DNA of 64,000 bases from Temperatibacter marinus (GTDB taxonomy: Bacteria; Pseudomonadota; Alphaproteobacteria; Sphingomonadales; Kordiimonadaceae): positions 1,240,001 through 1,304,000 of the forward strand of contig NZ_CP123872.1 in the NCBI RefSeq assembly GCF_031598375.1. The letters run 5' to 3'. Positions 32,517 to 50,463 of this stretch are shown one piece after another. Every line of letters begins with the position of its first letter. Position 1 is the stretch's first letter. The notes under the pieces were generated by a model. It was given only the letters and a program-made list of their open reading frames with translations. It was not told where the DNA came from and searched no databases. The position numbers were made by a program, and so were the translations under genes.

Positions 32517-32518
32517 TC

Positions 32519-34128: not shown

Positions 34129-34135
34129 CACCATC

Positions 34136-35086
34136 CTATGTTATTAGAGAGGCGAGACGGCGGGACTTTAGATCCTCATCTTCCTCTAATTTTTCTAGGA
34201 GCCACTCTCTAAACTGCTTTACCTTTTTCACTGTTCTTTTTTCAGAAGGGCACACCAAGTACCAATTGCCTGGCGCTGGTGTTGTCAGGTCTTTGAAGGG
34301 GCGAACGAGAACGCCGCTGTTTATTTCTTCCTCGACATAGGGTTGCATGCCGAGGGCAATCCCAAGGCCACGTACTGCAGTCTTGAGCGCATGGTCATAT
34401 GAATCGAAGTTAATGCCAGAGCTTAGATCAATATTCTCAACCTTATATTTATTGAGCCAGACAAGCCAATCCCGCTCTGAAGGGTAAACTTGCAGGATGG
34501 TGTGATTAGCTAGGTCCGTTGGCTTTTCAAGGGGAGTTTCACCCTCAAGCATGCTCGGAGCACAGACGGGAAAAATCTCTGGGGAGAATAGATATTCAAA
34601 GAAGAGATCACTCTCTTCAGGGTGGCCGATCATAATGGCCAGATCTATATCTTGGTTGTTAAAGTCCACATCAATCTGTGATGTATTAAGGCGAACTTGA
34701 TAGTCGGGATACATTTCTGAGAATTCAGGCAAGCGTTGGATAAGCCACCGAATTGCGAAGGAGGAATAGGTTTGAATAGTTAAGACATTGCTTTGATGGG
34801 GTTGCAACAGGACTTTCGTTCCTTCTGAAATTCGGTCAAACGACTCGCGAAGGACAAGAAAGTATTTTTTACCGGCTGAAGTTAACTCCACGGACCGAGG
34901 GTAGCGAATAAATAATTCAGTCAAGAGATGGTCTTCAAGTTTCTTTATCTGATGTGAAATCGCTGAGTGAGAGACAAAAAGTTCGTCCGCAGCATCTCTA
35001 AATGAACCAAGACGTGCCGCTGCTTCAAAAGCTTTCAGAGCGTTTAGAGGGGGGAGTTGGCGCCTCACTGAGGTATCCTTTCTCAT
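34136..35086 (-). CDS. LysR-type transcriptional regulator (GcvA-like)
   Basis: 316 residues. The N-terminal helix-turn-helix reads LKAFEAAARLGSFRDAADEL then FVSHSAISHQIKKLEDHL, and the LysR effector domain follows (about 95-300). The PPLNALKAFEAAARLGS opening places it in the GcvA/AmpR-like group. It is divergent from an SDR/quinone oxidoreductase/sulfotransferase operon and lies upstream of the carboxylesterase operon. A 13-base motif shared by both promoters makes it the likely controller of both. The effector is unknown. Confidence 0.9.
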   Translation of the reverse strand: MRKDTSVRRQLPPLNALKAFEAAARLGSFRDAADELFVSHSAISHQIKKLEDHLLTELFIRYPRSVELTSAGKKYFLVLRESFDRISEGTKVLLQPHQSNVLTIQTYSSFAIRWLIQRLPEFSEMYPDYQVRLNTSQIDVDFNNQDIDLAIMIGHPEESDLFFEYLFSPEIFPVCAPSMLEGETPLEKPTDLANHTILQVYPSERDWLVWLNKYKVENIDLSSGINFDSYDHALKTAVRGLGIALGMQPYVEEEINSGVLVRPFKDLTTPAPGNWYLVCPSEKRTVKKVKQFREWLLEKLEEDEDLKSRRLASLIT

Positions 35087-35104
35087 ATCAAAAATATCAT
35101 TGAG

Positions 35105-35117
35105 TTAGTTTTTCTCA
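35105..35117. promoter_or_regulatory. Candidate LysR-type box in the divergent promoter
   Basis: TTAGTTTTTCTCA fits the T-N11-A form of LysR sites. It lies 18 bp upstream of the LysR start and 79 bp upstream of the SDR start, a classical position for activation of one gene and autorepression of the other. Confidence 0.6.
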
Positions 35118-35196
35118 CCCTAGTGAATGTAATATCAAATTGTCAATAGCTCTTAAACCCTTCATTTATATAGGGTGATCTTAGGAGGTGGTTTTC

Positions 35197-35985
35197 ATGC
35201 AGTATGAAAATAATTTACTACAAAATAAACGCGTGATTATAACGGCGGGTGCTGGAGGCATCGGCCTGGGCATGGCAGAAGCTTTTGTTGCAGCTGGGGC
35301 AGCTGTATCCATTTGTGATGTGGACGATCAATCATTTGCTGACATAAAGGACAAAGGCATTGTGCATTGTGGCCAGGCGAATGTAGCGTCTTTTGATTGC
35401 ATGCAGGCGTATTTTGAAGACGCCTTAAAGGCATTGGGTGGGCTGGACATACTAGTGAATAATGCTGGAATCGCAGGGCCAAACGGACTGATGGAAGATA
35501 TTGACCCTGAAGAGTGGCGGAAAACAATTGATGTAGATTTGAACGGTGTTTTCTATGCGACGAAATTGGCAATTCCTCATTTAAAGAAAAATGATGCAGG
35601 GTCGATTTTAAACATTGCCTCAAGTGCTGCATTTTTTGGGTATCCAAATCGGGCACCCTATGCGTCAGCGAAATGGGCCGTTGTCGGAATGACGAAGACA
35701 ATGGCAATGGAATTGGGGCCTCACAACATTCGTGTGAATGCCATTTGTCCAGGAAGTGTGAACGGGGACCGAATTGACCGAGTGATCCGGGCTGAATCAG
35801 AAAGTAGAAATATATCTGAGCGGGAAGTCATGGATAGTTATTTAAAACATGTCTCCTTAAAAACCTTTGTTGATAAGGAAGATGTCGCCAATGCAGCGCT
35901 TTTCCTTTTATCAGATTTAGGCAGGCGTATTTCAGGGCAAATTATTGGTGTTGATGGGCATACAGAGTCACTGAGTCAGCATTAA
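35197..35985 (+). CDS. Short-chain dehydrogenase/reductase
   Basis: About 262 residues of a classical SDR: ITAGAGGIGLGMAEAF at the cofactor loop, DILVNNAGIAGP, a catalytic Ser in NIASSAAF, then YASAKWAVVG with Tyr and Lys, and the long C-terminal GRRISGQIIGVDGHTES. It oxidises or reduces an alcohol/ketone of unknown identity. The frame begins at a GTG at 35188, but that triplet overlaps the AGGAGG ribosome site at 35183-35188, so the ATG at 35197 is the start. First gene of a LysR-linked operon. Confidence 0.88.
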   Translation: MQYENNLLQNKRVIITAGAGGIGLGMAEAFVAAGAAVSICDVDDQSFADIKDKGIVHCGQANVASFDCMQAYFEDALKALGGLDILVNNAGIAGPNGLMEDIDPEEWRKTIDVDLNGVFYATKLAIPHLKKNDAGSILNIASSAAFFGYPNRAPYASAKWAVVGMTKTMAMELGPHNIRVNAICPGSVNGDRIDRVIRAESESRNISEREVMDSYLKHVSLKTFVDKEDVANAALFLLSDLGRRISGQIIGVDGHTESLSQH

Positions 35986-36030
35986 ATTGATCAAATCATA
36001 GAGTAATTGAAGAAGAGAGTAGGACAAGAA

Positions 36031-37014
36031 ATGAAGGCTGTTTGGTATGAAACGACTGGTGAGGCTGAATCAGTATTAACGATTGGGGAAATTGCTGTAC
36101 CTGAGTTGAATGCTGGAGAAGTGATGGTGAGAGTGCATGCTTCAGGAGTTAATCCTTCTGACGTAAAAACACGGGCTGGTGCTAGAGGCCCTCTTGCTTT
36201 TGATCGCGTTATTCCTCATTCAGACGGAGCTGGTGTGATTGAGGCTGTCGGTGCGGGTGTTTCTACAGAGCGTATTGGGGAGCGTGTTTGGATCTGGAAT
36301 GGCGCATGGGCGCGGGCGATGGGGACCAATGCTGAATATATTGTAGTTCCCGCCGAACAAGCAGCGCATTTGCCTGATGCCGTGAGTTTCGAAGCAGGGG
36401 CTTGTCTTGGCATTCCAGCTTCTACAGCTTACTATGGTGTATATGCTGACGGCTCTGTAGAGGGGAAAACTATCCTTGTCACAGGCGGTGCTGGCGCTGT
36501 TGGTCACTATGCTATTCAATTTGCCAAAGCGGGCGGTGCGAAAGTTATTACAACGGTTAGCGGCCCTGAAAAAGCAGCCCATGCTGAGACCGCGGGTCCC
36601 GACGCAGTGATCAATTATAGAGAAGGGGATGCAGCAGAAGCCATTTTGGCTGCAACGAACGGAGAAGGCGTTGATCGTGTTGTCGAGGTTGAATTTGGTG
36701 GAAATCTAGAGGTAACCAATAAAATCTTAAAACCAAATGGTGTTGTTGCGACCTATGGTTCAATGGGAGATATGGAACCTAAATTGCCCTTCTACCCAAT
36801 GATGTTTAATTGCGTAACTGTGCGAATGTACCTTGTATACCTATTGTCACAAGAGGCGCGTGCATTGACTGTCAATGGTGTGAATGAATGTATTAAGGAC
36901 CCTTCATTTAAGCATATGATCACAGAAGTTTACCCTTTTGAAAAAACTGCAGAAGCGCATAAAGCTGTTGAAAGTGGAACGCTTATTGGTAATGTTGTCG
37001 TTAAAGTCAAATAA
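36031..37014 (+). CDS. NADPH:quinone oxidoreductase-like zinc-independent MDR protein
   Basis: About 327 residues of the medium-chain dehydrogenase/reductase superfamily. The GroES-like domain (VRVHASGVNPSDVKTRAG) is followed by a Rossmann domain (ILVTGGAGAVGHYAIQFAKAGGAKVI). The zinc-binding cysteines of alcohol dehydrogenases are absent, which places it with quinone oxidoreductases and enone reductases. A TTG at 36007 in frame is less likely than the ATG at 36031, which has AGGA at 36021-36024. It lies 45 bp after the SDR and 17 bp before the sulfotransferase gene. Confidence 0.86.
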   Translation: MKAVWYETTGEAESVLTIGEIAVPELNAGEVMVRVHASGVNPSDVKTRAGARGPLAFDRVIPHSDGAGVIEAVGAGVSTERIGERVWIWNGAWARAMGTNAEYIVVPAEQAAHLPDAVSFEAGACLGIPASTAYYGVYADGSVEGKTILVTGGAGAVGHYAIQFAKAGGAKVITTVSGPEKAAHAETAGPDAVINYREGDAAEAILAATNGEGVDRVVEVEFGGNLEVTNKILKPNGVVATYGSMGDMEPKLPFYPMMFNCVTVRMYLVYLLSQEARALTVNGVNECIKDPSFKHMITEVYPFEKTAEAHKAVESGTLIGNVVVKVK

Positions 37015-37031
37015 CGAAAGCAGTCTGCATC

Positions 37032-38627
37032 ATGGTGGCCGTAGATTCAGCATCTGAAAAGCTTCATCAAGCCTATGCACTTTTCCAGAAAGGGCAGATT
37101 GAAGAGGCTGAATCTCTGAGCCGAGATCTATTAAGAAAAGATCCGAATAATGTTTCAGCACTTCGATTATTAGCTGAGATAGGAATTCAAGTGGGCGTCT
37201 ATGAAGAGGCAGAAAATTTGCTTCTTCATTGCTTAGACTTAGCCCCTGATTTTACCCTTGCTCGTTTAAATTATGCTGCCTTGCTTGCCAAGCGAACGCG
37301 CTATCAAGAGAGTATGCTTGAGCTAAAGCGTTTACTCGAAAGCGAGCCTGATAATGTTGCTATTCTTGTGCAAAAAGCTTCGGTTCTTGTGAGCCTCGGT
37401 GATTTTGACGCAGCGGAAAAATTATACCGAAATTTGACAAAGAGGCTGCCTGAGCATGCTCATATTCAATTGTCACTTGGTCATGTTCTAAAAACAAAAG
37501 GGGATGTGGCAAAAGCTATTGACGCTTATCGGGCTGCTATTGCACTTGAACCAGCGATGGGGGAGGCCTATTGGTCTTTGGCTAATTTAAAAACATTCAC
37601 TTTCACGGACGCGGATATTCTGCAAATGAAAGAACAGATGTTGGTTGAACAGCCCAAGGCACAAGATTTTGTGCATCTCTGTTTTGCTCTTGGCTATGCT
37701 CTCGAGAAGCAAGGTGATGTGGACGGTTCTTTCGCAGCTTATGCAAAAGGTAATCAGGTGAAGCGGCACATTGTTCACTATGATGCGCGAACGCATTGCC
37801 AGGATATGTTGCGCCAAAAAAGATTTTTTTCACCGGCTCATTATGAAAAGAAAGGGATGGAGGGCTGTGATGATTCTGCCCCTATTTTTATCGTCGGTCT
37901 CCCTCGTGCGGGCTCCACACTCATCGAGCAAATTCTCTCTTCCCACTCTCAGGTGGAAGGAACAATGGAATTGCCCGATATTATTTCTATGGCCCGCCGC
38001 TTGAGCGGAAAAAAAGTTGTCACGGATAAAGGAAACTATCCTGAAATTCTATCTACTCTTTCCTCAGAGGACATTGAAAACTTAGGGGAAGAATATATTG
38101 AAAGGACGAAGGTGCATCGGTCTGGCTTGCCTTTCTTTATTGATAAGATGCCAAACAATTTCATGCATATTGGGTTTATAAAAGAAATTTTACCAAAGGC
38201 AAAAATTATTGATGCCAGACGCCATCCGATGGCTGGATGTTTTAGCTGTTTCAAACAGCTCTTCGCAAAGGGTCAAAACTTTACATATTCTTTGAACGAT
38301 ATCGGGAATTATTACTGCGATTATTATGAAATAATGGAGCACTGGGACACTGTTTTACCGCAAGCCGTTCACAGGGTATATTATGAAAAAATGATTACTG
38401 ATACGGAAATGGAAGTGCGCCGTTTGCTAGACTATTGCGGCTTGCCTTTTGAAGAAGCATGTCTCACATTCTATCAAAATGACCGAGCAGTGCGGACGGC
38501 CAGTTCGGAACAAGTTCGCCAGCCCATTTACCAAAGTGGCCTTGAGGCATGGAAGCCCTATGAAGGCCACCTTGCGCCCCTTCAAAAAGCACTTGCTCAT
38601 GTATTGCCGAAATATCCGGCACTCTAA
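37032..38627 (+). CDS. TPR-sulfotransferase (first of two)
   Basis: 531 residues. Tetratricopeptide repeats fill about residues 8-260 (for example ALRLLAEIGIQVGVYEEAEN and LGHVLKTKGDVAKAIDAYRA). A P-loop sulfotransferase domain follows (about 280-531), with the PAPS 5'-phosphosulfate motif in FIVGLPRAGSTLIEQIL and a 3'-phosphate region around KIIDARRHPMAGC. The domain resembles protein and small-molecule sulfotransferases; TPRs suggest a protein or peptide partner. No signal peptide. It is the third gene of the LysR-linked operon and is clearly paralogous to the gene at 46813-48834 in the catalytic half. The acceptor is unknown. Confidence 0.88.
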   Translation: MVAVDSASEKLHQAYALFQKGQIEEAESLSRDLLRKDPNNVSALRLLAEIGIQVGVYEEAENLLLHCLDLAPDFTLARLNYAALLAKRTRYQESMLELKRLLESEPDNVAILVQKASVLVSLGDFDAAEKLYRNLTKRLPEHAHIQLSLGHVLKTKGDVAKAIDAYRAAIALEPAMGEAYWSLANLKTFTFTDADILQMKEQMLVEQPKAQDFVHLCFALGYALEKQGDVDGSFAAYAKGNQVKRHIVHYDARTHCQDMLRQKRFFSPAHYEKKGMEGCDDSAPIFIVGLPRAGSTLIEQILSSHSQVEGTMELPDIISMARRLSGKKVVTDKGNYPEILSTLSSEDIENLGEEYIERTKVHRSGLPFFIDKMPNNFMHIGFIKEILPKAKIIDARRHPMAGCFSCFKQLFAKGQNFTYSLNDIGNYYCDYYEIMEHWDTVLPQAVHRVYYEKMITDTEMEVRRLLDYCGLPFEEACLTFYQNDRAVRTASSEQVRQPIYQSGLEAWKPYEGHLAPLQKALAHVLPKYPAL

Positions 38628-38643
38628 AAGATAAGCTTAACCT

Positions 38644-38656
38644 TTAGTTTTATTCA
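38644..38656. promoter_or_regulatory. Weaker LysR-box-like site before TonB receptor
   Basis: TTAGTTTTATTCA agrees at 11 of 13 positions with the box at 35105-35117 and keeps T-N11-A. It lies 138 bp upstream of the receptor start. T-rich, so chance matching is possible. Confidence 0.35.
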
Positions 38657-38794
38657 TACAATTTGCTGGGTTTTTGATGATTTTCCCTATTCAAGGGTAA
38701 ATTTAATTCATGTCAGTGTATGAAAAGGTCGTTTGCCTAATTCTTTCTGCTTCCCTAGCCTGCGAGATGGGAAAAATATATTCTGGAGGGAAAT

Positions 38795-41119
38795 ATGAAA
38801 GAATATTCAAAAGCCACGTTAAAAGTGGCACTGTTAACTACAACTGTTATGTCAGCACCGCTGGCGGCTCAGGCACAAGATGATGAAATGATGCTTGAAG
38901 AAATTGTCGTTACCGCACGTAAGACATCTGAATCTATGCAGTCAGTTCCTATCTCAATTCAAGCTTTAGGCCAGTCTAAACTAGAGGATGCTAATGTCGG
39001 AGGTTTCTCTGATTTTACCAAAATGCTGCCAAGCGTCTCTATCGCTTCCGTAGGCCCAGGGAATGCCCAAATTTATATGCGGGGTATTTCTGATGGCGGG
39101 GATGGTAACTTTTCTGGGACAAATCCGAGTGTGGGTGTCTATCTAGACGATCAACCTGTAACGGCAATTGGGCGTGTGCTGGACGTTCACATGTATGACA
39201 TTGCTCGTGTGGAAGCTCTCTCTGGACCGCAAGGCACGTTATACGGGGCAAGCTCTCAGGCGGGAACCATAAGAATTATTACAAATGAGCCAGACCCATC
39301 AGGGTTTTCAGCCGGCATTGACATGAGTGCTGGATTCACCAGAAAAGGTGAAGAAAGCTACTCACTTGAAGGGTTTGTCAATGTGCCTGTGTCTGATACT
39401 GCAGCGCTCCGTGTTGTTGGATGGCATGTGAGTGATGGCGGATATATTGACAATGTGAAAGGCGCAAAAGTCTTTACAGTTGATGGATTAAACAATGCTG
39501 GAAATCCAGCTACATCGCGTATCAGAGTCACCAATGATGACTATCTAGAGAAAGACTTTAACGATGAAGAAAACACAGGGATGCGTGCAGCGTTAAAAGT
39601 AGACCTCAATGATAGTTGGACGGCAACAGCTAAATTGATGCATCAAAAGCAAAAGACAACAGGTGTTTGGGATCACGACCCTGAAGATGTTGGGGATTTA
39701 AAGGTGCAGCGCTTCTTTGAGGATCGCGGAGAAGATAAATTCACTCAAGCCGGGTTAACCATTGAAGGTGAAGTTGCAGGCATGGATCTTGTCTATGCTG
39801 GATCCTACCTAGACCGTGATGTTCAATATGATATTGATTATAGTGAATATGCGGCATACTCAAGCTTCATCCCTTACTATACGTGTGATTTTGATGCGAA
39901 CTATTATTTCTTGACGGACACTTGTACAGACCCACGCATTCAGTTTGATCAAGAATCTAAATATAAAGTTCAAACTCATGAAATTCGCCTTCAGAGCGCT
40001 CAGGATAAACGCTTAAGATTCATCGCAGGGTTATTCTATCAGGATGCTGAGCATGCTTACGACAATCAGTGGCGTATTCCAACACTGCGCGCTGGTAAAC
40101 GAGCAGATGATAACTTTACAGGGAATGTCTCTGGCCATTATTCAGATTCATACTTCATTACTGATCAAGTTAGGACGGACACAGAAAAAGCAGTGTTCGG
40201 GGAAGTGACTTACGACATTAATGAACAGCTTTCTGCGACAGTTGGGGCAAGGTTTTTCAAATCCAGCAGTAAGCTTGAGGGTGTGGTTGCTACATTCTGG
40301 TGGAATGGCGAATTGTTAGATTTAGAGTCGTCAGAGAGCAGTTCGATTTTTAAATTCTCACTTGATTATCAGGTGAATGATGATGTGCTCTTGTATGGTA
40401 CGGTCTCTGAAGGATTTAGACCTGGTGGTAATAATCGGGTGACAGGCACATCGGCAGGTGCAACCTATAATTCTGATCTGATTACAAACTATGAATTTGG
40501 TTGGAAATCTACATTGGCAGATGGTCGGGCGCGTTTTAATGGGTCGATCTTTGTGATGGATTGGTCCGACATTCAATTAACACGCTTTGATCCTAGCATC
40601 TCTCTCCTTGGCTTAACAGCCAACGTGGGCAGTGCCAAAGTGAAAGGGTTAGAGACCGACATCACTGTTGCCGCAACAGAGTCGCTTACTTTGTCAGCAA
40701 GCATGTCGTATATTGATGCATCACTGTCAGAGAATTATGCTGTTGATGTTGCCAATATAGACAGCAATCCTGACGCGCCTGAGGGAACACGATTGTCAAT
40801 GATCCCTAAATTTAAGGTGCATATGAGTGCACGCCAATCCTTTGAATTTATGGACTATAGCAGCTTCTTCCAAGCGTCTCTAAGTCATCAGGGGAGTTCC
40901 TATAATGACTTTTTCATAAACAACAGAGAAAAACAGGCTGGCTATACAATCGCAGACCTTTCAATTGGTATTGAGGAAGATGATTGGTCCTTAATTCTGT
41001 TTGCGGAAAACCTCTTTGACGAACGTGCTGAAATGTACCGCAACTCTATCGATTACGATAGTCGGATCACAACGAACAGACCGCGTTCCTTCACTGTTAG
41101 ATATTCGAAGCAGTTCTAG
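38795..41119 (+). CDS. TonB-dependent receptor (first of a related pair)
   Basis: 774 residues. A signal peptide ends near PLAAQAQDDE; the TonB box/plug begins LEEIVVTARKTSESMQSVPI; the plug carries YMRGIS, VGVYLDDQPV and ARVEALSGPQGTLYGASSQA; the barrel ends in RPRSFTVRYSKQF with terminal Phe. It belongs to a large receptor group common in sphingomonads and relatives, where substrates are mostly unknown. A loop at about residues 345-373 is rich in tyrosine (eight in about 29) and contains cysteines nearby. TTCTGGAGGG at 38781-38790 is the ribosome site. The receptor at 41393 and the partial one at 63018 share its plug signatures. Confidence 0.9.
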   Translation: MKEYSKATLKVALLTTTVMSAPLAAQAQDDEMMLEEIVVTARKTSESMQSVPISIQALGQSKLEDANVGGFSDFTKMLPSVSIASVGPGNAQIYMRGISDGGDGNFSGTNPSVGVYLDDQPVTAIGRVLDVHMYDIARVEALSGPQGTLYGASSQAGTIRIITNEPDPSGFSAGIDMSAGFTRKGEESYSLEGFVNVPVSDTAALRVVGWHVSDGGYIDNVKGAKVFTVDGLNNAGNPATSRIRVTNDDYLEKDFNDEENTGMRAALKVDLNDSWTATAKLMHQKQKTTGVWDHDPEDVGDLKVQRFFEDRGEDKFTQAGLTIEGEVAGMDLVYAGSYLDRDVQYDIDYSEYAAYSSFIPYYTCDFDANYYFLTDTCTDPRIQFDQESKYKVQTHEIRLQSAQDKRLRFIAGLFYQDAEHAYDNQWRIPTLRAGKRADDNFTGNVSGHYSDSYFITDQVRTDTEKAVFGEVTYDINEQLSATVGARFFKSSSKLEGVVATFWWNGELLDLESSESSSIFKFSLDYQVNDDVLLYGTVSEGFRPGGNNRVTGTSAGATYNSDLITNYEFGWKSTLADGRARFNGSIFVMDWSDIQLTRFDPSISLLGLTANVGSAKVKGLETDITVAATESLTLSASMSYIDASLSENYAVDVANIDSNPDAPEGTRLSMIPKFKVHMSARQSFEFMDYSSFFQASLSHQGSSYNDFFINNREKQAGYTIADLSIGIEEDDWSLILFAENLFDERAEMYRNSIDYDSRITTNRPRSFTVRYSKQF

Positions 41120-41156
41120 ACCATCGTCGAATATCATGATTTTAGAGAATATTATG

Positions 41157-41178
41157 GGGCCCTTCGGGGCCCTTTTTT
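41157..41178 (+). terminator. Terminator with TTCG tetraloop
   Basis: GGGCCC (41157-41162), loop TTCG, GGGCCC (41167-41172), then six T. A compact, strong intrinsic terminator for the first receptor gene. Confidence 0.93.
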
Positions 41179-41288
41179 GTGAAGTCTATTAGGATCAAGG
41201 GCTTAAAATTTTTCAACTGAAACTCTCGTACTAAGCATCATAATTATTGAAAGTAGTTGAATTTTTACCTCTTGAACCCTTTTAAGGA

Positions 41289-41301
41289 TTAGTTTTTCTA
41301 A
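41289..41301. promoter_or_regulatory. Candidate LysR-box before the second TonB receptor
   Basis: TTAGTTTTTCTAA is a perfect TTAG-N5-CTAA palindrome of T-N11-A form. It shares its first 11 bases with the box at 35105-35117 and lies 91 bp upstream of the receptor start. Confidence 0.45.
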
Positions 41302-41392
41302 AGCTAGAGTTGAGATAAACAGTTTGTATTCGGTGTGTGAACTATGGTTAATTAAAGATGGGATCGTATCGTAAAGCTTTTGGGAGGATAAA

Positions 41393-43780
41393 ATGATCAA
41401 AAATTTACGGGAAAAACATCATCTGAAATTGTTAGCGGGCGTTTCAGCTTATTCGCTTTTGATGATGACGCCGCAGGCAAGTTATGCTCAGGATGCTGAT
41501 AAGGACGACGATGATGATATTGAAGAGCTGATCGTTATTGGTACAAAGTCAGCCTCTAATATTCAGGATGTGGCTCAAAGTATCACTGCGATTAGCGGGG
41601 AAACAATTGAGAAAGAAGGGTTGATGAACTTGGCGGATTATGCCCGGTCGATCCCTTCACTCACTTTTTATGCCTTGCAGCCAGGCCGGAATCAAATTGT
41701 ATTCCGCGGTGTTTCTACTGGCACAGACGAATTTAGGACAGATAGTTCCACATCTGTTTATTTTGATGAGCAACCGATGACTGCTATCAGTCAGCAAATT
41801 GATCCGCGCATGGTCGATATTCAAAGAATTGAAGCTTTGCCTGGACCTCAAGGAACTCTGTTTGGATCTTCCTCCCAATCAGGGACTATTCGCTTCATTA
41901 CGAATAAACCCGATACTTCAGGTTTTGGTGGTCAGGTAGAAGCATCGGTTGGCTTTACTAAAGGCGGTGAAGCAAGTTATGACATCAACGGTGTTCTGAA
42001 TATTCCACTCACAGATGATTTGGCTGTACGGGCTGTCGGTTTTAAAGTTCAAGACGGTGGCTATATCGATAATGTGTTTGGGACAGGGCTAACCGGATCC
42101 TATGATAACAGTGATGTTGTTGAAGATGATTTCAATGACTGGGGTGTTTATGGAGGCCGTCTCTCTGCAAAATGGGATGTGAGTGATACATGGTCTGTTC
42201 TGGCAACAGGCATGTATGAAAAATCCGAATCTAACGGAGACTGGAAAACAGACCCCTCAGCTGGGGACTATGCGATTGTTCGTTTCCGTGATGATTTCCG
42301 AAATGATGAATGGTGGTCAGCAGCCTTAACAATCCGTGGAGATTTGGGCTTTGCAGATCTGGTTTCTGCAACCACCTATCTTGACCGTAAAATCAGTTAT
42401 GAGTGGGACGGGTCCACCTATGATGCTTGGCGCTCAAGTTATTATGAGACTTTTGGTAATTATGCGGCTTACTATGCGCTCCAAGAAACTGGAGATCGTA
42501 AATCATATACCTATAACAATCAGACTCAAAAAAGATTCACGCAAGAAATTCGCCTGTCCTCTAAAGGGGATAGCCGGTTCCAGTGGATGGTCGGTGGCTT
42601 TTATGAAAAAGTAGAAGATGACTGGGATTGGGGCACTAAAGTTCCAGATTATTTTAGTACAAAAAGTTATGCGTCTGCCAATTACTGGTCATGCTATTAT
42701 GCCTATTACGAGCCTGCCTTCCAGTGCCCGTTAAAATCAGGCGATCGCTATTATTCACAGCTATATGATCGCACGGTTTCTCAGGTCGCTGTTTTTGGTG
42801 AGCTTTCTTATAATTTCACAGATAACCTCATGGCTGTCTTTGGGGCGCGTTGGTTCGAATTTGAACGGGACCGCACAGAAATTAATCAGTGGCCATTCGG
42901 TCTGCCGCCCGAGGGTGTCACAGGTGATTTTTATGGTGGAACTGATATTATTCAGGCAAAGAATAATGACACTGTCTATAAGTTTGGCCTAGAGTATCGT
43001 ATTGATGACGATCGAATGGTTTACTTTAACTATAGTGAAGGCTTCAGACTTGGCGGTGTAAACTCGCTGAGGGCTGCAAATACTGGCTTTGTTCCACGCG
43101 AATACGGTCCTGATACTTTAACCAACTATGAGGCTGGCCTAAAAAGTCAATGGTTGGATGATCGACTGACGTTAAATCTTTCTGTCTTCAGAATGGAGTG
43201 GCAAGATATCCAGCGCAGTGTTTGGTCTAATAGTGTTTGGTGGCTAAACGGGAATGTGAATGGGGGTGAAGCTGTGTCAAAAGGCTTTGAAGGGTCTATG
43301 TGGGCACAAGTCACACCGCGCTTAACATTCAATGCCAATTTATTCCTTTCGGATGCGAAATTAAAAGATCCTATCCTGAATAGTGATGGATCAATTGGTG
43401 TCGCAGCAGGGACAGATCTCACCTTTGCACCGTCCAGTAAATATTCCTTTGGATTTGAATATACTATTCCTGATGCAATGTGGGGGGCAGACTTTTGGGT
43501 TCGCTATGATTTTTGGGGACAAGCTTCACAGCTACAAAACCAATATACTGGCTTAGTTATCCCGTCTTATAACGAGAGCAACCTAACCGCAGGTCTTTGG
43601 AAAGAAGGCGATTGGGATGGCACACTTGCTATTTATAATCTCTTTGATCAGCGTAATATCAGCTCAATTGATGAGGGTGATAATTATGCTGCAGATTATT
43701 TCGGAACGAATATGTACCGGAATATGCAAAATGTTAATCGTCCTCGGACACTTTGGCTCACGGTTAGAAAACGTTTCTAA
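41393..43780 (+). CDS. TonB-dependent receptor (second of a related pair)
   Basis: 795 residues. A signal peptide ends near ASYAQDADKDD; an acidic linker (DKDDDDDIEE) precedes the plug start LIVIGTKSASNIQDVAQSI; the plug has VFRGVSTG, TSVYFDEQPM and RIEALPGPQGTLFGSSSQSG; the barrel ends in RPRTLWLTVRKRF. Two extracellular-loop regions are strikingly tyrosine-rich (about residues 335-370 and 420-455; the second contains two Cys). It has its own promoter region and terminator. Substrate unknown; the neighbourhood of sulfotransferases and an amidohydrolase suggests a common substrate or a shared modification. Confidence 0.9.
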   Translation: MIKNLREKHHLKLLAGVSAYSLLMMTPQASYAQDADKDDDDDIEELIVIGTKSASNIQDVAQSITAISGETIEKEGLMNLADYARSIPSLTFYALQPGRNQIVFRGVSTGTDEFRTDSSTSVYFDEQPMTAISQQIDPRMVDIQRIEALPGPQGTLFGSSSQSGTIRFITNKPDTSGFGGQVEASVGFTKGGEASYDINGVLNIPLTDDLAVRAVGFKVQDGGYIDNVFGTGLTGSYDNSDVVEDDFNDWGVYGGRLSAKWDVSDTWSVLATGMYEKSESNGDWKTDPSAGDYAIVRFRDDFRNDEWWSAALTIRGDLGFADLVSATTYLDRKISYEWDGSTYDAWRSSYYETFGNYAAYYALQETGDRKSYTYNNQTQKRFTQEIRLSSKGDSRFQWMVGGFYEKVEDDWDWGTKVPDYFSTKSYASANYWSCYYAYYEPAFQCPLKSGDRYYSQLYDRTVSQVAVFGELSYNFTDNLMAVFGARWFEFERDRTEINQWPFGLPPEGVTGDFYGGTDIIQAKNNDTVYKFGLEYRIDDDRMVYFNYSEGFRLGGVNSLRAANTGFVPREYGPDTLTNYEAGLKSQWLDDRLTLNLSVFRMEWQDIQRSVWSNSVWWLNGNVNGGEAVSKGFEGSMWAQVTPRLTFNANLFLSDAKLKDPILNSDGSIGVAAGTDLTFAPSSKYSFGFEYTIPDAMWGADFWVRYDFWGQASQLQNQYTGLVIPSYNESNLTAGLWKEGDWDGTLAIYNLFDQRNISSIDEGDNYAADYFGTNMYRNMQNVNRPRTLWLTVRKRF

Positions 43781-43800
43781 TTAGAGATCCTCACAATTGA

Positions 43801-43841
43801 AAGGGTACTATTCGCTTAGGCGGGTGGTACCCTTGTTTTTT
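43801..43841 (+). terminator. Terminator after the second TonB receptor
   Basis: AAGGGTAC (43801-43808) pairs with GTACCCTT (43827-43834), followed by G and six T. Confidence 0.85.
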
Positions 43842-43919
43842 ATGTAGAAAAATCTGGTGAGACGGGTTGATTTGTCTGACTGCATATGCAGAACTACAGA
43901 TAGAAAAGAGGAGACTTTG

Positions 43920-44837
43920 GTGAAATTAATTGCGACGTCTGTAGTGCGAGGGAGTTTTCAAGGGGAAAGTCACGGCGGTGTTTATCTACTAGACCTAGAT
44001 CAGCAGCAGGTGACGCAACCTCTTGATTGGAATACAGCGGATATTGATTGGCAAGGAAGGGGATGGGATCGAGGCCTGAGGGGTATCGCTTTTCATGCGG
44101 GTCTCGTTTATATCGCAGCCAGTGATGAACTGTTTGCCTATACACCAGATTTTCAACCAGTTGGGTCATGGCGAAACCCTTATTTAAAGCATTGTCATGA
44201 AATTTCAGTTCACGAGAATACTCTGTTCTTAACGTCTACGGCTTATGACAGTATTTTGGGATTTGATCTCATCGAAAAAAAGTTTAATTGGGCCCTGCAT
44301 GTTGATTTAGAAGGCCTCAATTATAAAGGATCAATCTATGATCCATACGGAGATGAAGGCCCATTATCCCTCAATAAATTGCATTTAAATATGGTCACAG
44401 CCACCACGGGTGGTTTGTATATAAGTGGCCGTAAATCAGGGGGCATGTTGCTCTTCAACGGCGAAACTATCCATATGTCAGCCATGTTGCCGCCAGGTAC
44501 GCATAACGCACAACCCTTTCGTGAGGGTGTGTTGTTTAATGACAGCGACTCTGATGTCGTGCGTTATGCATCACGCAGCGGCGATGAGGACAGAGCCTTA
44601 AAAGTTCCGCTTTATCCGTCAAGTGATCTGACCCATCAGGACTTCGACGATAGCCGGACTGCACGACAGGGATTTGCAAGAGGCCTTTGTGTGATTAATG
44701 AGCGGTTAATTGCGGGAGGATCCTCGCCTTCAACCATCTGTGTTCACGACCTGCAAGAAGGCAAGACAGCCCTGAAGGTTAATTTAACAATGGATATCAG
44801 AAATGCAGTCCATGGCTTAGAAGTTTGGCCCTACTAA
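43920..44837 (+). CDS. Hypothetical beta-propeller-like protein
   Basis: About 305 residues. The sequence repeats beta-rich blade-like segments (GGVYLLDLDQQQV, GLVYIAASDELFAYT, NTLFLTSTAYDSILGFDL, GGLYISGRKSGGMLLF, ERLIAGGSSPSTICVHDL), which suggests a propeller. Conserved-looking histidines occur in LKHCHEISVH, KLHLNMV and GTHNAQPF. I do not recognise a characterised family; it may be DUF4915-like. No signal peptide is visible. Several upstream starts exist; GAGGAG at 43908-43913 points to the GTG at 43920. The 3' end overlaps the converging amidohydrolase by 4 bp. It lies between two receptors and two sulfotransferases. Confidence 0.7.
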   Translation: MKLIATSVVRGSFQGESHGGVYLLDLDQQQVTQPLDWNTADIDWQGRGWDRGLRGIAFHAGLVYIAASDELFAYTPDFQPVGSWRNPYLKHCHEISVHENTLFLTSTAYDSILGFDLIEKKFNWALHVDLEGLNYKGSIYDPYGDEGPLSLNKLHLNMVTATTGGLYISGRKSGGMLLFNGETIHMSAMLPPGTHNAQPFREGVLFNDSDSDVVRYASRSGDEDRALKVPLYPSSDLTHQDFDDSRTARQGFARGLCVINERLIAGGSSPSTICVHDLQEGKTALKVNLTMDIRNAVHGLEVWPY

Positions 44838-46816
44838 TCCGCTTGATAAACAATTTTACCGTCTACATATGTGACAAGAACTTTCGTTTTACAGTGGGGC
44901 CCTTTAAAAGCCTCACATATACTATAAGCTTCTCGGCTATAGGCTAATGTTGGGGTTTTCCCCAATGTTTCAGCGGCTTTGATGATGTCATGGTTTATGA
45001 TAATAAAATCTGCTTTTTTCCCGATTTCTAGGGAACCAGTCATGTGATCATGATTCAATGCTTTTGCACCATTGATGGTATGGGCATCAATCAGATCTCT
45101 GATGGAAAGCCGCTCCCGCTTATTCATCATCATCCATTGAGGGTCTACTTGCTTATTCGCCCCTTCTAGAGAAGGAGTGATGAAATCGCCGCGCATCAGA
45201 CCGTACATGATGTCGGAAAAGGGACGCAGCCCCACTGCTTCGACAGGGACATCGCTTCCAGCAGAGAGTGTCGCGCCGTGCTCTTGCATGCTCTTAAAGA
45301 TATATGCCTTACTCATATAGTCTGAGTTTTGATTATAAAGATCCTTGAATTCATAGACATTATTATGTCGCTGTAAGAAAGGCATAACGGTTACGTCATA
45401 AGCGGGACTTGGGGAAAGCCAAGATAAAGTTGGGGTGACAAAAACACCCAGATCTTTGAGCCGGCCTAAATCATTCGGATCCATGACTTGCATATGAGAA
45501 ATATTGTGCGGCAAAGTGCTTAGTTGTCTCGCTCTTGCTGCTTCTATCGCCGTGAGTGTGACATCGATGGCGCGATCGCCGAGAGAATGAAAATGTGCTG
45601 TAATCCCTGCTTTATCAAGGGCCTTAACAGTATCGATTAAACTTTTTTCATCAAATTCTATGATCCCATAATTTTGGGTATCATGGCTGTAGGTTGTGTG
45701 GCCTTTTTGATCCCAATGAACCGTTTTATACGGACTTTTCAAGGCGGCAGTTTGGGTTGGGGTTTCAATCACACCGTCTACCATAATTTTCACTGCCATA
45801 GATTTTAAAAAATCAGAATAAGGGGCTAAATCACGGCTCACCTTTAGGACATCCTGAATAAAGGCTTCGGTCTTAATTTTGTTGTTTTGGTCCACATAGA
45901 GATCTTCTCTCAGGGCGTAAGCTAACGTCAGTCGGACCTTCAATTCATTCTTCTCAGCAAGAGGTTTGAATACGGCGATTTCTCTATCTGTCGACCACAC
46001 ATCCTGTGCAGAGGTCACCCCTTTAGATAAAAAGAAGTGGTTGATATCATCCGCTCTAGAGATCAAAGAATTGACAGACTCTTTCTTATAGAAAAAGAGA
46101 TCATAGGCTCCAGCATCTTTAATCAAACCAGACGGCCGTCCTTCTGCGTCCCGAGCAAAATATTCCTGGTAGGCTTTCAAATCCGTTTTTAATGTCTCTG
46201 CGGTTACAGCAATTGCTTTTTCATGGAGGGTTGCCCCGTGCATAAATCCATAACTGTTGGTGGCATAGGCATGGCCGTCTGTGCCGAGAAGGTAAACAAT
46301 ATGCGTCTCACTCACTTGATCAAGACCGTCTCGTAAACTTGCATAAGGGCCCAAAAATTGAGGGCTGTCGACACCATAGCCACTGAACTGGCCAACTGTA
46401 ATCCAAGAGCCCGATTTTGGAAGTTGTTGCCCGTCAGATTGGAGACATTTCTTAATATAATCAATGATTTCCTGCAGTGTGAATATATTACCTTCAGGGA
46501 GCGTGCAGGTCAATTTTTCGACGGCGAGTAAAGGATGGACATGAGCATCATGCAGACCAGGTAAGATCATCTTTCCTTTTAGGTCAATCATTTCTGTATG
46601 AGGGCCTGCGTAGGTTGTAGCTTTGTTGATTGACCCAGCATATAGAATTGTATCGCCTTTAATGGCGAGGGCCGTCACTGACGATTGTTGATCATCAGCC
46701 GTATAAATGACACCATTCCAAAAAATTTTATCGGCACCCTTATCGTCAGCCGCCATAAGCGGCATGCTAATGAATAGAAAGAGAGTTAAACTATATAGGG
46801 TGCAATTTTTTATCAT
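44834..46816 (-). CDS. Secreted YtcJ-like amidohydrolase
   Basis: 660 residues. A signal peptide (about 1-22) is followed by an amidohydrolase family 3 domain: the metal motif in LPGLHDAHVHPLLA, TAHFHSLGDRAIDVTL, SGSDVPVEA and the C-terminal GSLEIGKKADFIIINHD. Family members hydrolyse amides, formamides or similar C-N bonds; substrates are usually unknown. Its start overlaps the stop of the upstream TPR-sulfotransferase by 4 bp (ATGA type), so the two are translationally coupled although one appears periplasmic and the other cytoplasmic. Confidence 0.87.
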   Translation of the reverse strand: MIKNCTLYSLTLFLFISMPLMAADDKGADKIFWNGVIYTADDQQSSVTALAIKGDTILYAGSINKATTYAGPHTEMIDLKGKMILPGLHDAHVHPLLAVEKLTCTLPEGNIFTLQEIIDYIKKCLQSDGQQLPKSGSWITVGQFSGYGVDSPQFLGPYASLRDGLDQVSETHIVYLLGTDGHAYATNSYGFMHGATLHEKAIAVTAETLKTDLKAYQEYFARDAEGRPSGLIKDAGAYDLFFYKKESVNSLISRADDINHFFLSKGVTSAQDVWSTDREIAVFKPLAEKNELKVRLTLAYALREDLYVDQNNKIKTEAFIQDVLKVSRDLAPYSDFLKSMAVKIMVDGVIETPTQTAALKSPYKTVHWDQKGHTTYSHDTQNYGIIEFDEKSLIDTVKALDKAGITAHFHSLGDRAIDVTLTAIEAARARQLSTLPHNISHMQVMDPNDLGRLKDLGVFVTPTLSWLSPSPAYDVTVMPFLQRHNNVYEFKDLYNQNSDYMSKAYIFKSMQEHGATLSAGSDVPVEAVGLRPFSDIMYGLMRGDFITPSLEGANKQVDPQWMMMNKRERLSIRDLIDAHTINGAKALNHDHMTGSLEIGKKADFIIINHDIIKAAETLGKTPTLAYSREAYSICEAFKGPHCKTKVLVTYVDGKIVYQAD

Positions 46817-48834
46817 GATAACCCTGCCTTTTTTACTGTGGTCGGGAGTCGGTCCAATATGTCTTCAAGACTATACTTCCAGTCTTCAAGATGGCTTTCA
46901 TATTCGCGCCACTTGCCAAGACCTCCTTTATAGATTGGCTGGCGAACTTGTTCTGAACTGGCCGTGAGCACAGCCCGTTTATTTTCATGAAAATTCAGGC
47001 AATTTTCTTCAAAGGGCAGGCCGCAAAAGTCTAGAAGCCCCCTGACTTGGTCTTCCAAATTAAGAACAGTATGCTCGTAATGCGCTGTGTAAATTTTCCC
47101 GGGCAGGACGGAGTGCCAGTAAGTCATAAGAGAATCATAATTTTGGTAATATTCTCCCAGTTCAAAGATATCGTAGGTGAAATTCTGCCCAGCCGCGAAT
47201 AGCTGCTTGTAAGCCCCGAGACAACTATCAAGAGGATGCCGTCTCGCATCAATAATCTTTGCATTGGGGAGGATGGTTGATAAAAGCCCGATATGAGCAA
47301 AATTGTTCGGTAGTTTATCCGTGAAAAACGGCTTTCCTTCCACTCTGTGCGGTTTCACGGCTTCGAGATATTCTTGACCATAAGCCTTAAAGTCCATATC
47401 TCGTAGGTCCAGAACAGACTGAGGGTAGTGAATTTTATCAACGCGGTATTTGCCAATTGAACTAGCGATCCGGCCGAGATCGGAAAGCTCAGCCGTTCCT
47501 TCAACTTGACTATGGCTCGCAAGAATTTGCTCTATAAGTGTCGAGCCCGATCGCGGTAAACCAACGATAAATATAGGATCTGGACTCGGATCTCCAACGG
47601 CTTTTTTCTCTTCTAAAAAGTCAGCAGTAAACGTATCCATAAGTCCTTTATGCATTACATTCATTTGAGCTGGGTCGAACGTGACTGAAGGCCGCTGTTT
47701 CAGGTTGCCTTCATGGTAGTGATGCCAAGCTTTGTCAAACTCCTTTTGATCTTCATAGGCTTTCCCTAGGGAGAAATGCATATGGACAGATGATTTGACG
47801 TCCAGCTGTTCGTTGGTGGCAAGCTGCTCTTCCATGGCTTTGATCTCAGTGTCTCTAAATTTAAAAATCTTTAAATTCGCCATTGACCAATAGACTTCAC
47901 CGTAATCAGGTCTCAACTCGATAGCACGTCTATAGGCCGTCAGAGACTCTTCCATATGTCCTGTTGTTTTTAAAACATGTCCAAATCCCATTTGATAGCC
48001 TGCAATTTCAGGCCTAATACTAATGAGCTTTCTATAAACATCTAAGGCTTTATCTGGGAAGTTTGCGGTTCCATATGCACTGGCTAGACCTGCAAGAGCA
48101 TCTGCGTTATCGGCCTCATGGATCAGAACGGCCTCAAAGCATTTAATGGCTTCATCTGCCCGCATCAGGCTCTGTAAAAGCCCCCCTAAGTCGAGCCAAG
48201 CAAAAAGAAAATCTGGGGCTATGTCTGTTGCCCGTCTCAATAAAGCCTCTGCATCGGAGAGTTTTTTATCCTGATCTCTGTAGCTAAGCGCGAGTAAACG
48301 CATAGCATCAACATTATCAGGCGCTTCTCTGAGGGCTTTTTTGAAAGCTATTTCCGCCTCTTCAAGGCGGCCGGACCGGATATGCTCGAGACCAATTGCA
48401 ATATTCTCTTTGCCTTTATCACGAGTAAAATAATCTTGAAAGGAGGTGTCTGCCTCTTGACCGCGTCCCATAGCAGCAAGGACTTGGCCAATTTTTTTAT
48501 GAACTTCGGCGTTGGACGAATCTAATCTTGCAGCCCTTTCAAGTAGTGGTAAGGCTTCTTCAAGATCGCCCTTTTGGGCCAAGATGCTTCCTAAATCTTC
48601 ATATAAGGGAGGAAAATCATCTGTGATGGTCAGTGCAAATCTAAGCTGTTGTTCGGCTGCTTCGCCCTTTCCTTGACGCAATAGGCTATGGGCCAATAAT
48701 CGTAAAAAAGGAGGGCTGGATGGATTTTCAATCAGAACATCGCGGCAGAGTGCCTCAGCTTGCTTAGCTTTGCCCGTTTTTAAAGCATTAATAATTTTTG
48801 CGGATTGTGCGGCTAAATGCATCTCTTGTGTCAC
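46813..48834 (-). CDS. TPR-sulfotransferase (second, with more repeats)
   Basis: About 673 residues. At least nine tetratricopeptide repeats (about 15-390, for example LGSILAQKGDLEEALPLLER and LGGLLQSLMRADEAIKCFEA) precede a sulfotransferase domain (about 430-673) with the PAPS loop FIVGLPRSGSTLIEQILAS and KIIDARRHPLDSC. The catalytic half is closely similar to that of 37032-38627 (shared HSQVEGT, ASSEQVRQPIY and CGLPFEE). The frame opens at 48873, but a GTG at 48834 has a GGAGG ribosome site five bases away and fits the protein start. It is coupled to the amidohydrolase and divergent from the beta-hydroxylase-like gene. Confidence 0.88.
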   Translation of the reverse strand: MTQEMHLAAQSAKIINALKTGKAKQAEALCRDVLIENPSSPPFLRLLAHSLLRQGKGEAAEQQLRFALTITDDFPPLYEDLGSILAQKGDLEEALPLLERAARLDSSNAEVHKKIGQVLAAMGRGQEADTSFQDYFTRDKGKENIAIGLEHIRSGRLEEAEIAFKKALREAPDNVDAMRLLALSYRDQDKKLSDAEALLRRATDIAPDFLFAWLDLGGLLQSLMRADEAIKCFEAVLIHEADNADALAGLASAYGTANFPDKALDVYRKLISIRPEIAGYQMGFGHVLKTTGHMEESLTAYRRAIELRPDYGEVYWSMANLKIFKFRDTEIKAMEEQLATNEQLDVKSSVHMHFSLGKAYEDQKEFDKAWHHYHEGNLKQRPSVTFDPAQMNVMHKGLMDTFTADFLEEKKAVGDPSPDPIFIVGLPRSGSTLIEQILASHSQVEGTAELSDLGRIASSIGKYRVDKIHYPQSVLDLRDMDFKAYGQEYLEAVKPHRVEGKPFFTDKLPNNFAHIGLLSTILPNAKIIDARRHPLDSCLGAYKQLFAAGQNFTYDIFELGEYYQNYDSLMTYWHSVLPGKIYTAHYEHTVLNLEDQVRGLLDFCGLPFEENCLNFHENKRAVLTASSEQVRQPIYKGGLGKWREYESHLEDWKYSLEDILDRLPTTVKKAGLS

Positions 48835-49019
48835 GTCTTCCTCCAGAAATAATCCCATCTTTAGTGTTAGCAAAGAAAAGGCCTGATCTGAACTGAAAAG
48901 TCCTGCCCTATATATTTTTCGCCCATGACTGAATTTCTTTCATCCTTGAAAGAGACTTTCTCCTTGAGCTTTGTGCTGGACTTACCATAATGGAAGTGAA
49001 CAAGGGAGGAGTGTGCGCC

Positions 49020-49592
49020 ATGGATATTGCGGTGCCTGTAAAAAATTTAGGACCTGTCGATGTGGCGCCGCTGATAAAAGCGGTGCTCGCTCAGGACGAA
49101 GCATCATGGTTTGAACAGGATTATCGGCAAAAATCATATGATGTGCACAAAGAGACCAGTTCAATAGTCATGATCTTTTGTGATGATGAATGGCCAAATG
49201 TTTCCACCTTCAAGGACAAGGGCTGGGATAAGCTCGAGTCCGCGTTGATGCCAACAATCAATCGGATTATTGCAGAGAATTATCCAGCGGGCGGAACTAT
49301 TCTAAGGGCCATGGTCGCCCGCTTGCATCCTAAAGGACGGATTACGCCCCATGTTGATGCCAAACCGTCTTTTCATGCGGGTCATAGAGTGCATATCCCT
49401 TTGGTTACAAATCCTGCTTGTCGGTTCACAGTAGACGGTCGCCCCTACAAGTTTGAAGTGGGACAAGCATACGAGATAAATAATCAAAAGCCCCATAGTG
49501 TCATCAACAACGGGCGGGACAATCGGCTTCATATTATTTTTGATTATATGCCTAAAGGGATGAATGAGGAAGATGATGGAAGCAGTAGATAA
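49020..49592 (+). CDS. Aspartyl/asparaginyl beta-hydroxylase-like oxygenase
   Basis: About 190 residues. The double-stranded beta-helix iron site is visible as PHVD in RITPHVDAKPSFHAGHRVHI with the distal histidine in NNQKPHSVINNG, and an Arg in DNRLHIIFDY that could bind 2-oxoglutarate. Family enzymes hydroxylate Asp/Asn side chains in peptides or related small molecules. An ATG at 48990 is possible, but AGGGAGGA at 49003-49010 favours 49020. It overlaps the homocysteine methyltransferase gene and is divergent from a TPR-sulfotransferase. The substrate is unknown. Confidence 0.83.
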   Translation: MDIAVPVKNLGPVDVAPLIKAVLAQDEASWFEQDYRQKSYDVHKETSSIVMIFCDDEWPNVSTFKDKGWDKLESALMPTINRIIAENYPAGGTILRAMVARLHPKGRITPHVDAKPSFHAGHRVHIPLVTNPACRFTVDGRPYKFEVGQAYEINNQKPHSVINNGRDNRLHIIFDYMPKGMNEEDDGSSR

Positions 49593-50463
49593 GATTATTA
49601 TCATGGACGGGGCCATGGGCACTGAGCTGAGAGCAAGGGGGGCGCGCGTGGCGGATTATAAGTCCTCTGCTTGGTCGGCTTTTGCCTTGCTGGAAGACCC
49701 AGATGTTATCGAAGAAATTCATCTTGATTATATTCTGGCAGGTGCCAGGGTTATTACAGCTAATAATTATGCTGTGACCTCGTCATTATTAGAGCGCGCA
49801 GGCCTCGAAGCAAGGCAGGAAGAGTTGCTGAAACAGGCTGTTGAATTGGCCCTTAAGGCGCGAAAAAGAGCTGGAATCTCTTCAGTAAAAATTGCTGCCT
49901 CTCTCCCTCCGCTCAATACCAGCTATCAATCTGATTTGGTCGGTGATTTTGACCATATTTTAACGGAGTACCAACACATTGCACACAGTGTTAAACATTC
50001 AGTAGATATGTTTATTTGCGAGACAATGACCACTATTTCAGAGGCAAAAGCGGCCGCGAGAGCTGGATGCGCAACAGGGGTGCCGACCTTTGTTTCTTTT
50101 ACCCTAGAGCCCTCAACCGGTAAATTGCGCGGCGGAGAAACAATAGAAGCTTTGGTAACGGGACTTGCTGACTTACCAATCGCTGGATTTTTGTTCAATT
50201 GCTGTGATTGTCATACCATTTTGAAAATGCTGCCTGAGCTTTCAGCCTTGGTCACGGTTCCAATTGGCGCCTATGCGAACCCAGTTTTACACGAGCCCTT
50301 AGAGAATGGGGAGCCCGAACAGGTTATTGCCAAGCCATTAAATGCCGAAGAATACGCAGACCAAGTGGTTCAATGGGTTCAAGCCGGTGCGACCTATGTC
50401 GGTGGCTGCTGTGATACAAGTCCCGCCTATATACAGCGTATGAAGCAGAAATTAAATCACTGA
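49576..50463 (+). CDS. Homocysteine S-methyltransferase family protein
   Basis: About 295 residues of a TIM-barrel methyltransferase. The opening IMDGAMGTELRARG, the zinc cysteine in FLFNCCDCHT and the C-terminal pair in VGGCCDTSP match MmuM/BHMT-like enzymes, which move a methyl group from S-methylmethionine, betaine or a similar onium donor to homocysteine. Several ATGs are clustered at 49564-49576; GAGGA at 49566-49570 best serves 49576. The gene overlaps the beta-hydroxylase gene by 17 bp. A methyl-onium donor would fit the BCCT carrier in the region; this is inference. Confidence 0.87.
   Translation: MEAVDKIIIMDGAMGTELRARGARVADYKSSAWSAFALLEDPDVIEEIHLDYILAGARVITANNYAVTSSLLERAGLEARQEELLKQAVELALKARKRAGISSVKIAASLPPLNTSYQSDLVGDFDHILTEYQHIAHSVKHSVDMFICETMTTISEAKAAARAGCATGVPTFVSFTLEPSTGKLRGGETIEALVTGLADLPIAGFLFNCCDCHTILKMLPELSALVTVPIGAYANPVLHEPLENGEPEQVIAKPLNAEEYADQVVQWVQAGATYVGGCCDTSPAYIQRMKQKLNH

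Follow-up and report, generated by a model that had tools for sequence, protein, structure and literature searches.

Sulfation of tyrosine is a familiar protein modification in animals and plants. The autotransporter heptosyltransferases AAH and TibC modify their targets in the cytosol before Sec export and are encoded next to them. In bacteria, the sole documented case of tyrosine sulfation as of 2019 was RaxST of Xanthomonas oryzae, which adds sulfate to Tyr-41 of the RaxX precursor ahead of its secretion (PMC6637879). A dedicated transferase acting on an outer-membrane protein is exemplified by TibC, which glycosylates autotransporters (PMC4358343). Here, a stretch of 64,000 nucleotides from Temperatibacter marinus (contig NZ_CP123872.1, positions 1,240,001 to 1,304,000; hereafter the window) was analyzed, in which two sulfotransferases carrying tetratricopeptide repeats (TPR-STs; ST1 and ST2) are encoded near two TonB-dependent receptors (TBDRs; TBDR1 and TBDR2). 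The two kinds of gene were found to be paired in this genome and in many others. We favor the reading that the sulfotransferase sulfates tyrosines of its partner receptor in the cytosol ahead of export, to which we give about an even chance of being correct.

The window enzymes resemble each of the described systems in part. They share the catalytic fold, the binding motifs for the sulfate donor 3'-phosphoadenosine 5'-phosphosulfate (PAPS), a Glu at the base position and a putative acidic Tyr acceptor motif with the eukaryotic tyrosylprotein sulfotransferases TPST1 and TPST2. However, those are Golgi-membrane enzymes without TPRs and are only about 17-20% identical to the window enzymes, whose activity is predicted only. 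RaxST is likewise a PAPS-dependent sulfotransferase that modifies a protein precursor before export and is encoded beside its substrate, but RaxX is a secreted peptide of 60 residues that leaves through a type I exporter, whereas the target proposed here is a TonB receptor, the enzymes carry TPRs and the pairs are widespread. No leader peptide or type I exporter genes of the RaxX-RaxST-RaxAB type were seen among the annotated or recurrent neighbors, although very small open reading frames were not surveyed systematically; the sulfotransferase and receptor genes are usually directly adjacent. AAH and TibC, acting on AIDA-I and TibA, are also dedicated transferases for an outer-membrane protein, but they transfer a sugar instead of sulfate and their target is an autotransporter passenger. 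In O-GlcNAc transferase (OGT) and SPINDLY, a TPR superhelix that helps to select protein substrates is fused to a transferase, but there the catalytic domain is an unrelated glycosyltransferase. A search of open-access papers yielded no account of a TPR-ST/TBDR pair or of sulfated outer-membrane proteins.

The source genome is a complete chromosome of 3.18 Mb with eight strong TPR-STs and about 40 TBDRs, and all eight TPR-STs lie near a TBDR. The gap between the two genes is 61-168 bp in seven cases, and the eighth enzyme, ST2 (window position 46813), is 3.0 kb from TBDR2. If roughly 80 of some 3000 genes adjoin a TBDR, as we estimate, seven direct TBDR neighbors among eight sulfotransferases is far beyond chance. 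In a quick tree of the 40 receptors, those linked to a TPR-ST clustered (3 changes compared to a shuffled mean of 7.4; 0 of 500 shuffles were as low), and the grouping in the sulfotransferase tree broadly parallels it. We have high confidence that the association of TPR-STs with TBDRs is real.

The pairing was then followed across other genomes. The closest named TPR-ST homolog comes from Kordiimonas, an alphaproteobacterium. Among the 80 best homologs in named genomes, which include Sphingomonas, Caulobacter, Lysobacter, Dyella, Rhodanobacter, Halieaceae, SAR86, Nitrospirillum and Kordiimonas, 75 lie no more than 500 bp from a TBDR, which is on the same strand in 72 of these cases. The limits of the linkage were probed with 60 TPR-STs drawn from a 150-genome sample of the phylum. 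The top-scoring subfamily was linked, with the top nine all within 150 bp of a TBDR, and most lower-scoring TPR-STs were unlinked. In a FastTree phylogeny of 164 catalytic domains, the linked enzymes form one supported clade (94 of its 101 rows are linked) and a smaller clade. Therefore, one TPR-ST subfamily, and not the whole family, belongs to TBDRs. A Pfam survey of the genes around unlinked TPR-STs found no dominant family. The near neighbors include two flagellin-matching proteins and a protein of the OGT type (GT41) with a fused FkbM methyltransferase domain (L170:7504-11658). Three stretches (L172, L127 and L179) each have an array of 4-6 TPR-STs and no TonB receptor nearby.

The reciprocal search used a receptor profile, so that loci were picked without reference to the sulfotransferase. 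This profile was built from linked receptors, and the clade is thus defined by linkage, but the ranking was by similarity alone and a wide score gap lies below the clade. Among 387 genomes of Alphaproteobacteria, 23 receptors of at least 665 bits were found in 16 genomes, and a TPR-ST adjoins all 23 (one is cut by a contig end). Among 276 genomes of Gammaproteobacteria, 14 receptors above 600 bits were found in nine genomes, with a TPR-ST within 1.8 kb of 13. Sulfotransferases above 700 bits were confined to the same 16 and the same nine genomes as the receptors. The lone unpaired gammaproteobacterial receptor (L280) bears the loop motif described below, and an orphan sulfotransferase (L281) from the clade of the linked enzymes is present in its genome. 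Several receptors bordering the receptor clade (260-396 bits; L249-L252 and T1773072 of the window's own genome) have neither the enzyme nor the motif. Chance or lineage-wide synteny, in which neighbors are inherited together without functional coupling, is a further explanation, and some of the pairs do come from related genomes. Paralogous pairs within one genome, their occurrence in two classes and their differing flanking genes speak against it, and the reciprocal samples, with a TPR-ST neighbor for 36 of the 37 clade receptors, largely refute it, leaving this explanation scarcely credible.

The AlphaFold2 (AF2) model of ST1 (pLDDT 92) consists of an OGT-like TPR superhelix and a TPST-like catalytic domain. 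When the catalytic domain was compared with PDB folds, the best seven matches were tyrosylprotein sulfotransferases, some of them peptide-bound (Z 22.5-23.9), followed by the sulfotransferase domains of polyketide-type enzymes (CurM and olefin synthase; Z 18.2-18.7); a sequence search with this domain alone led to the CurM and TPST families. Both window enzymes belong to the PAPS-dependent Sulfotransfer_3 family by Pfam score and by their cofactor motifs, which in ST1 are the 5'-phosphosulfate-binding motif (5'-PSB) PRAGSTL at residues 291-297 and the R...S pair of the 3'-phosphate-binding motif (3'-PB), Arg397 and Ser405. Across 63 of these sulfotransferases, P291, R292, G294, T296, E313, K372 and R397 are invariant and S405 is kept in 92%. 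Judged by its position relative to the TPST Glu, Glu313 is the candidate catalytic base; this assignment is our own, and together with the fold it gives the enzyme the structural hallmarks of a tyrosylprotein sulfotransferase. Hydropathy gave no apparent signal peptide or transmembrane segment in the sulfotransferases, and the genome encodes an APS kinase, which would supply PAPS. Unfolded proteins are frequent clients of TPR proteins, and the 1:1 pairing would suit a private chaperone. The protein could therefore serve mainly as a TPR-based chaperone or adaptor that helps the receptor to be exported, and either act catalytically on an unrelated target or not at all. We consider this very improbable given that the residues for PAPS binding and catalysis vary little or not at all, which indicates that catalysis is under selection.

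Another possible explanation is that the substrate of the enzyme is a small molecule connected with the receptor, either a nutrient once it has been imported or a ligand that is secreted and later recovered, and that the Tyr-rich receptor loop is an unmodified ligand site. Betaine- or amine-type catabolic genes (BCCT, amino-acid permease, Rieske, DAO and aminotransferase) do lie near the pairs, and the polyketide-type sulfotransferases are the next-best folds. However, the catalytic domain is closest to the peptide-sulfating TPSTs and is combined with an OGT-like TPR scaffold, and no conserved exporter or biosynthetic genes were seen. The catabolic neighbors also vary widely between cassettes (amino-acid permease, Rieske, DAO and aminotransferase in some, alpha-glucosidase or phosphonate genes in others) while sulfotransferase and receptor stay paired, so the receptor is the constant partner of the enzyme. 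We regard sulfation of a small molecule as unlikely.

A candidate acceptor site was found in loop L4 of the receptors. In the main clade, this loop of the linked receptors contains an acidic stretch with many Tyr, for example SDYSDYSFWYD, VDYTDYLFVGQYLPYYICD or QDYTNYARGVYGTYYQC, and that of TBDR1 reads IDYSEYAAYSSFIPYY. Across 63 receptors with a mean identity of 30%, Y352 is invariant and D348 and Y349 are kept in at least 90%. The motif [DE]YxxY occurs in L4 of 103 of 105 linked main-clade receptors compared to 2 of the 32 unlinked receptors encoded in the window's genome. The Tyr content of L4 is 16.4% in the main clade, 17.5% in the clade linked to a propeller-like protein, which has a variant motif, D-x-x-x-Y, inside a very Tyr-rich L4, and 4.7% in unlinked receptors; in most other loops, linked and unlinked receptors are alike. 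Over whole receptors of the window's genome, the difference is weak (5.3% in linked receptors compared to 4.2%; p 0.006, uncorrected). The AF2 model of TBDR1 (pLDDT 87) has the TonB receptor fold, with FyuA nearest, and L4, flanked by long strands, sits at the end of the barrel with the long loops and not at that with the short turns, which makes it extracellular by topology.

The receptor could also be modified on residues other than tyrosine, on Ser/Thr or on a receptor-borne glycan, as relatives of the enzyme may do on autotransporters. TPR-STs do occur beside autotransporters that are not Tyr-rich, and the loop motif contains a conserved S/T. We think this quite unlikely in view of the strong, loop-specific enrichment of Tyr in an acidic context in the linked receptors and of the lack of a conserved glycosyltransferase in the modules. 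Two autotransporter loci are on plasmids: one of Enterobacter sp. 638 encodes a TPR-ST of another subfamily with a GT8 glycosyltransferase and an autotransporter (L300:7473-13686), and one of Thalassospira marina encodes a TPR-ST of another subfamily 36 bp from an autotransporter (L301:5641-9635). Such linkage suggests that the wider family modifies surface or outer-membrane proteins.

Several observations weigh against sulfation of receptor tyrosines. The model confidence of TBDR1 is low within L4. The motif marks a receptor clade, and inheritance together with ligand binding may explain it without any modification. A partial Mantel test of co-evolution between sulfotransferase and loops gave a partial r of 0.34 for L4 and at most 0.14 for other loops, but barrel-wall windows were equally high; since L4 is not singled out from them, this test is not used as support. 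A second sulfotransferase clade (partners T260197, T743481 and T2480480) and the enzyme S323007 are paired with receptors that lack the motif, and four fairly high-scoring sulfotransferases in three stretches (L246-L248) of the genomes sampled receptor-first have no adjoining TBDR. Lastly, the autotransporters beside other TPR-STs are not Tyr-rich and have no acidic Tyr motif, so the TPR-ST family is probably not tyrosine-only and its acceptor there may differ.

If receptor tyrosines are nevertheless the target, each TPR-ST would be a dedicated cytosolic modifier of the adjoining TBDR. Its TPR superhelix would grip the unfolded receptor precursor, and the TPST-like domain would move sulfate from PAPS onto tyrosines of one loop, at DY[ST]xY in the main clade and, for propeller-linked receptors, within a loop that has many Tyr and the motif DxxxY. 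The modified receptor would then be exported by Sec and inserted by the β-barrel assembly machinery (BAM) with the loop facing outward. We infer the loop as acceptor, tyrosine as the residue and the timing before export, and the purpose is likewise conjectural: sulfotyrosine would change ligand binding or shield the receptor from phage or bacteriocins. The first-pass annotation of the window had proposed sulfation of a peptide, a secreted metabolite or the receptors. The receptors are now favored over the other two because of the near-obligate 1:1 pairing with one receptor clade, the TPST-like domain and the clade-limited acidic Tyr motif. Its further suggestion, that the receptors import the sulfated product, found no backing, as no conserved peptide gene or exporter was found and the flanking catabolic genes vary by cassette.

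ST2 and TBDR2 are accompanied by further genes. The protein encoded at 43857-44837, called propeller-like in the first-pass annotation, matches nothing in Pfam or NCBIfam and nothing meaningful among PDB sequences. When this protein alone served as query, it turned up in 35 of 177 genomes from a single gammaproteobacterial order and in 5 of 176 from the window's own order. Twenty loci, all from the gammaproteobacterial order, were examined, and counts of accompanying genes are lower bounds owing to contig ends. All 20 have a TPR-ST and a TBDR2-type receptor, or part of one where a contig or stretch ends (in L333 the receptor is 6.7 kb away and cut). At least seven have the hydroxylase, four the amidohydrolase and three the homocysteine methyltransferase, and L330, L335, L343 and L347 have the layout of the window, namely receptor, propeller-like gene and then, on the opposite strand, the sulfotransferase. 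ST1-like loci, chosen by sulfotransferase similarity, had no propeller or hydroxylase homologs nearby; a view of these two genes as unconserved was overturned by the receptor-first gammaproteobacterial sample and the propeller-first search. The co-occurrence survey that the first-pass annotation called for thus came out positive: propeller, sulfotransferase and receptor, and less often hydroxylase and amidohydrolase, are kept together across two classes.

Three aligned members of the propeller-like family share six invariant His (H21, H94, H96, H158, H198 and H301 in the aligned form), and the protein is possibly a metalloprotein. The hydroxylase has the Asp_Arg_Hydrox domain with the HxD...H and Arg signature; H121, D123, H169 and R179 are invariant in four sequences. 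It also shows weak similarity to proline cis-4-hydroxylase, an enzyme that acts on the free amino acid. A relative with 36% identity is encoded on a plasmid of Asticcacaulis sp. DW145, where its operon (L299:5498-13366) reads TBDR, family 2 sulfotransferase, Asp/Asn hydroxylase and TPR-ST, with a further sulfotransferase, and sits downstream of phosphonate-degradation genes. A comparable row of sulfotransferase, hydroxylase and sulfotransferase is listed next to lasso-peptide-type genes (PMC10040529). More tentatively, the propeller-like protein, and the hydroxylase where present, may assist or modify the same receptor.

The features of the window are collected in Table 1. All genes named in the first-pass annotation are open frames where it placed them, and its description of the two sulfotransferases as paralogs (45% identity over 531 aa), of the two receptors as related (34% over 807 aa) and of an oxygenase gene starting divergently beside ST2 holds. 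Its view of a single neighborhood stands only in part: the grouping is non-random, as seen from the linkage of all eight TPR-STs and its recurrence elsewhere, but the region is two modules, each with one TPR-ST and one TBDR. Module A (31005-41119) reaches further left than had been described and comprises the BCCT, esterase, LysR, SDR, QOR, ST1 and TBDR1 genes, most of which recur near TPR-STs at four loci, L099, L112 and L119 (Halieaceae) and L166. Its content suggests that a betaine- or carnitine-ester-like compound is imported and degraded. Module B (41393-49592) comprises TBDR2, propeller, amidohydrolase, ST2 and hydroxylase.

Table 1. Features of the two modules and an example pair from another genome (window coordinates)
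Feature	Position	Strand	Remarks
BCCT-type (betaine/carnitine/choline) transporter	31005..32516	-	Module A; BLAST cluster shared with L161:995-2668 (Pfam BCCT 8e-171); kept in L099, L119
Carboxylesterase	32519..34039	-	Module A; clusters with L166:82-1689 (Pfam COesterase 6e-101); in L099, L119, L166
LysR-type regulator	34136..35086	-	Module A; homologs adjoin TPR-ST in L099, L112, L119, L166 (E 1e-79 to 1e-96)
SDR oxidoreductase	35188..35985	+	Module A; homologs in L099, L112, L119, L166 (E 1e-65 to 1e-69)
Zinc-binding/quinone oxidoreductase (QOR)	36007..37014	+	Module A; Pfam ADH_zinc_N; homologs in L099, L112, L119, L166
TPR-sulfotransferase ST1	37032..38627	+	Module A; Sulfotransfer_3 1e-49
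TonB-dependent receptor TBDR1, partner of ST1	38795..41119	+	Module A; plug PF07715 and barrel PF00593
TBDR1 loop L4 (residues 345-383), candidate sulfation site	39827..39943	+	Acidic Tyr motif DYSEY, residues 348-352, nt 39836-39850
TonB-dependent receptor TBDR2	41393..43780	+	Module B; plug PF07715 and barrel PF00593
TBDR2 loop L4 (residues 335-373), Tyr-rich	42395..42511	+	Variant motif DGSTY, residues 339-343, nt 42407-42421
Propeller-like protein (fold as labeled in the first-pass annotation)	43857..44837	+	Module B
Secreted-type amidohydrolase (Amidohydro_3 / Amidohydrolase_3)	44834..46816	-	Facultative in module B
TPR-sulfotransferase ST2	46813..48873	-	Module B; Sulfotransfer_3 8e-44
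Asp/Asn beta-hydroxylase-fold 2-oxoglutarate (2OG) oxygenase	48990..49592	+	Facultative in module B; Asp_Arg_Hydrox 9e-17; divergent from ST2
Homocysteine S-methyltransferase-like protein	49564..50463	+	Overlaps hydroxylase gene; sometimes near module B
Example pair, Novosphingobium pentaromativorans US6-1, JI59_RS19740/JI59_RS19735			Receptor loop PDYSYYSVAYDSYTYEYD

Two further genes of the window lie outside the modules. At 50480-52459 is an old yellow enzyme (OYE)-type FMN/FAD oxidoreductase that resembles the mycofactocin OYE_2 and BaiCD families with scores under their cut-offs. At 63018-64000 is the first part of a third TonB receptor linked to a TPR-ST (genome 1303018-1305558) and with a DYTDY loop motif, whose TPR-ST starts 64 bp downstream, just past the window end.

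Taken more broadly, we tentatively propose, at somewhat less than even confidence, a widespread bacterial maturation of outer-membrane receptors by Tyr sulfation of an extracellular loop, joined in some propeller modules by Asp/Asn hydroxylation, which would be an undescribed class of modification. If this is true, sulfation of surface receptors would be a common trait among Alpha- and Gammaproteobacteria, for instance in relatives of Sphingomonas, Caulobacter, Lysobacter, Novosphingobium and SAR86, and it would change the view of the nutrient specificity of TonB receptors and perhaps of phage or bacteriocin recognition.

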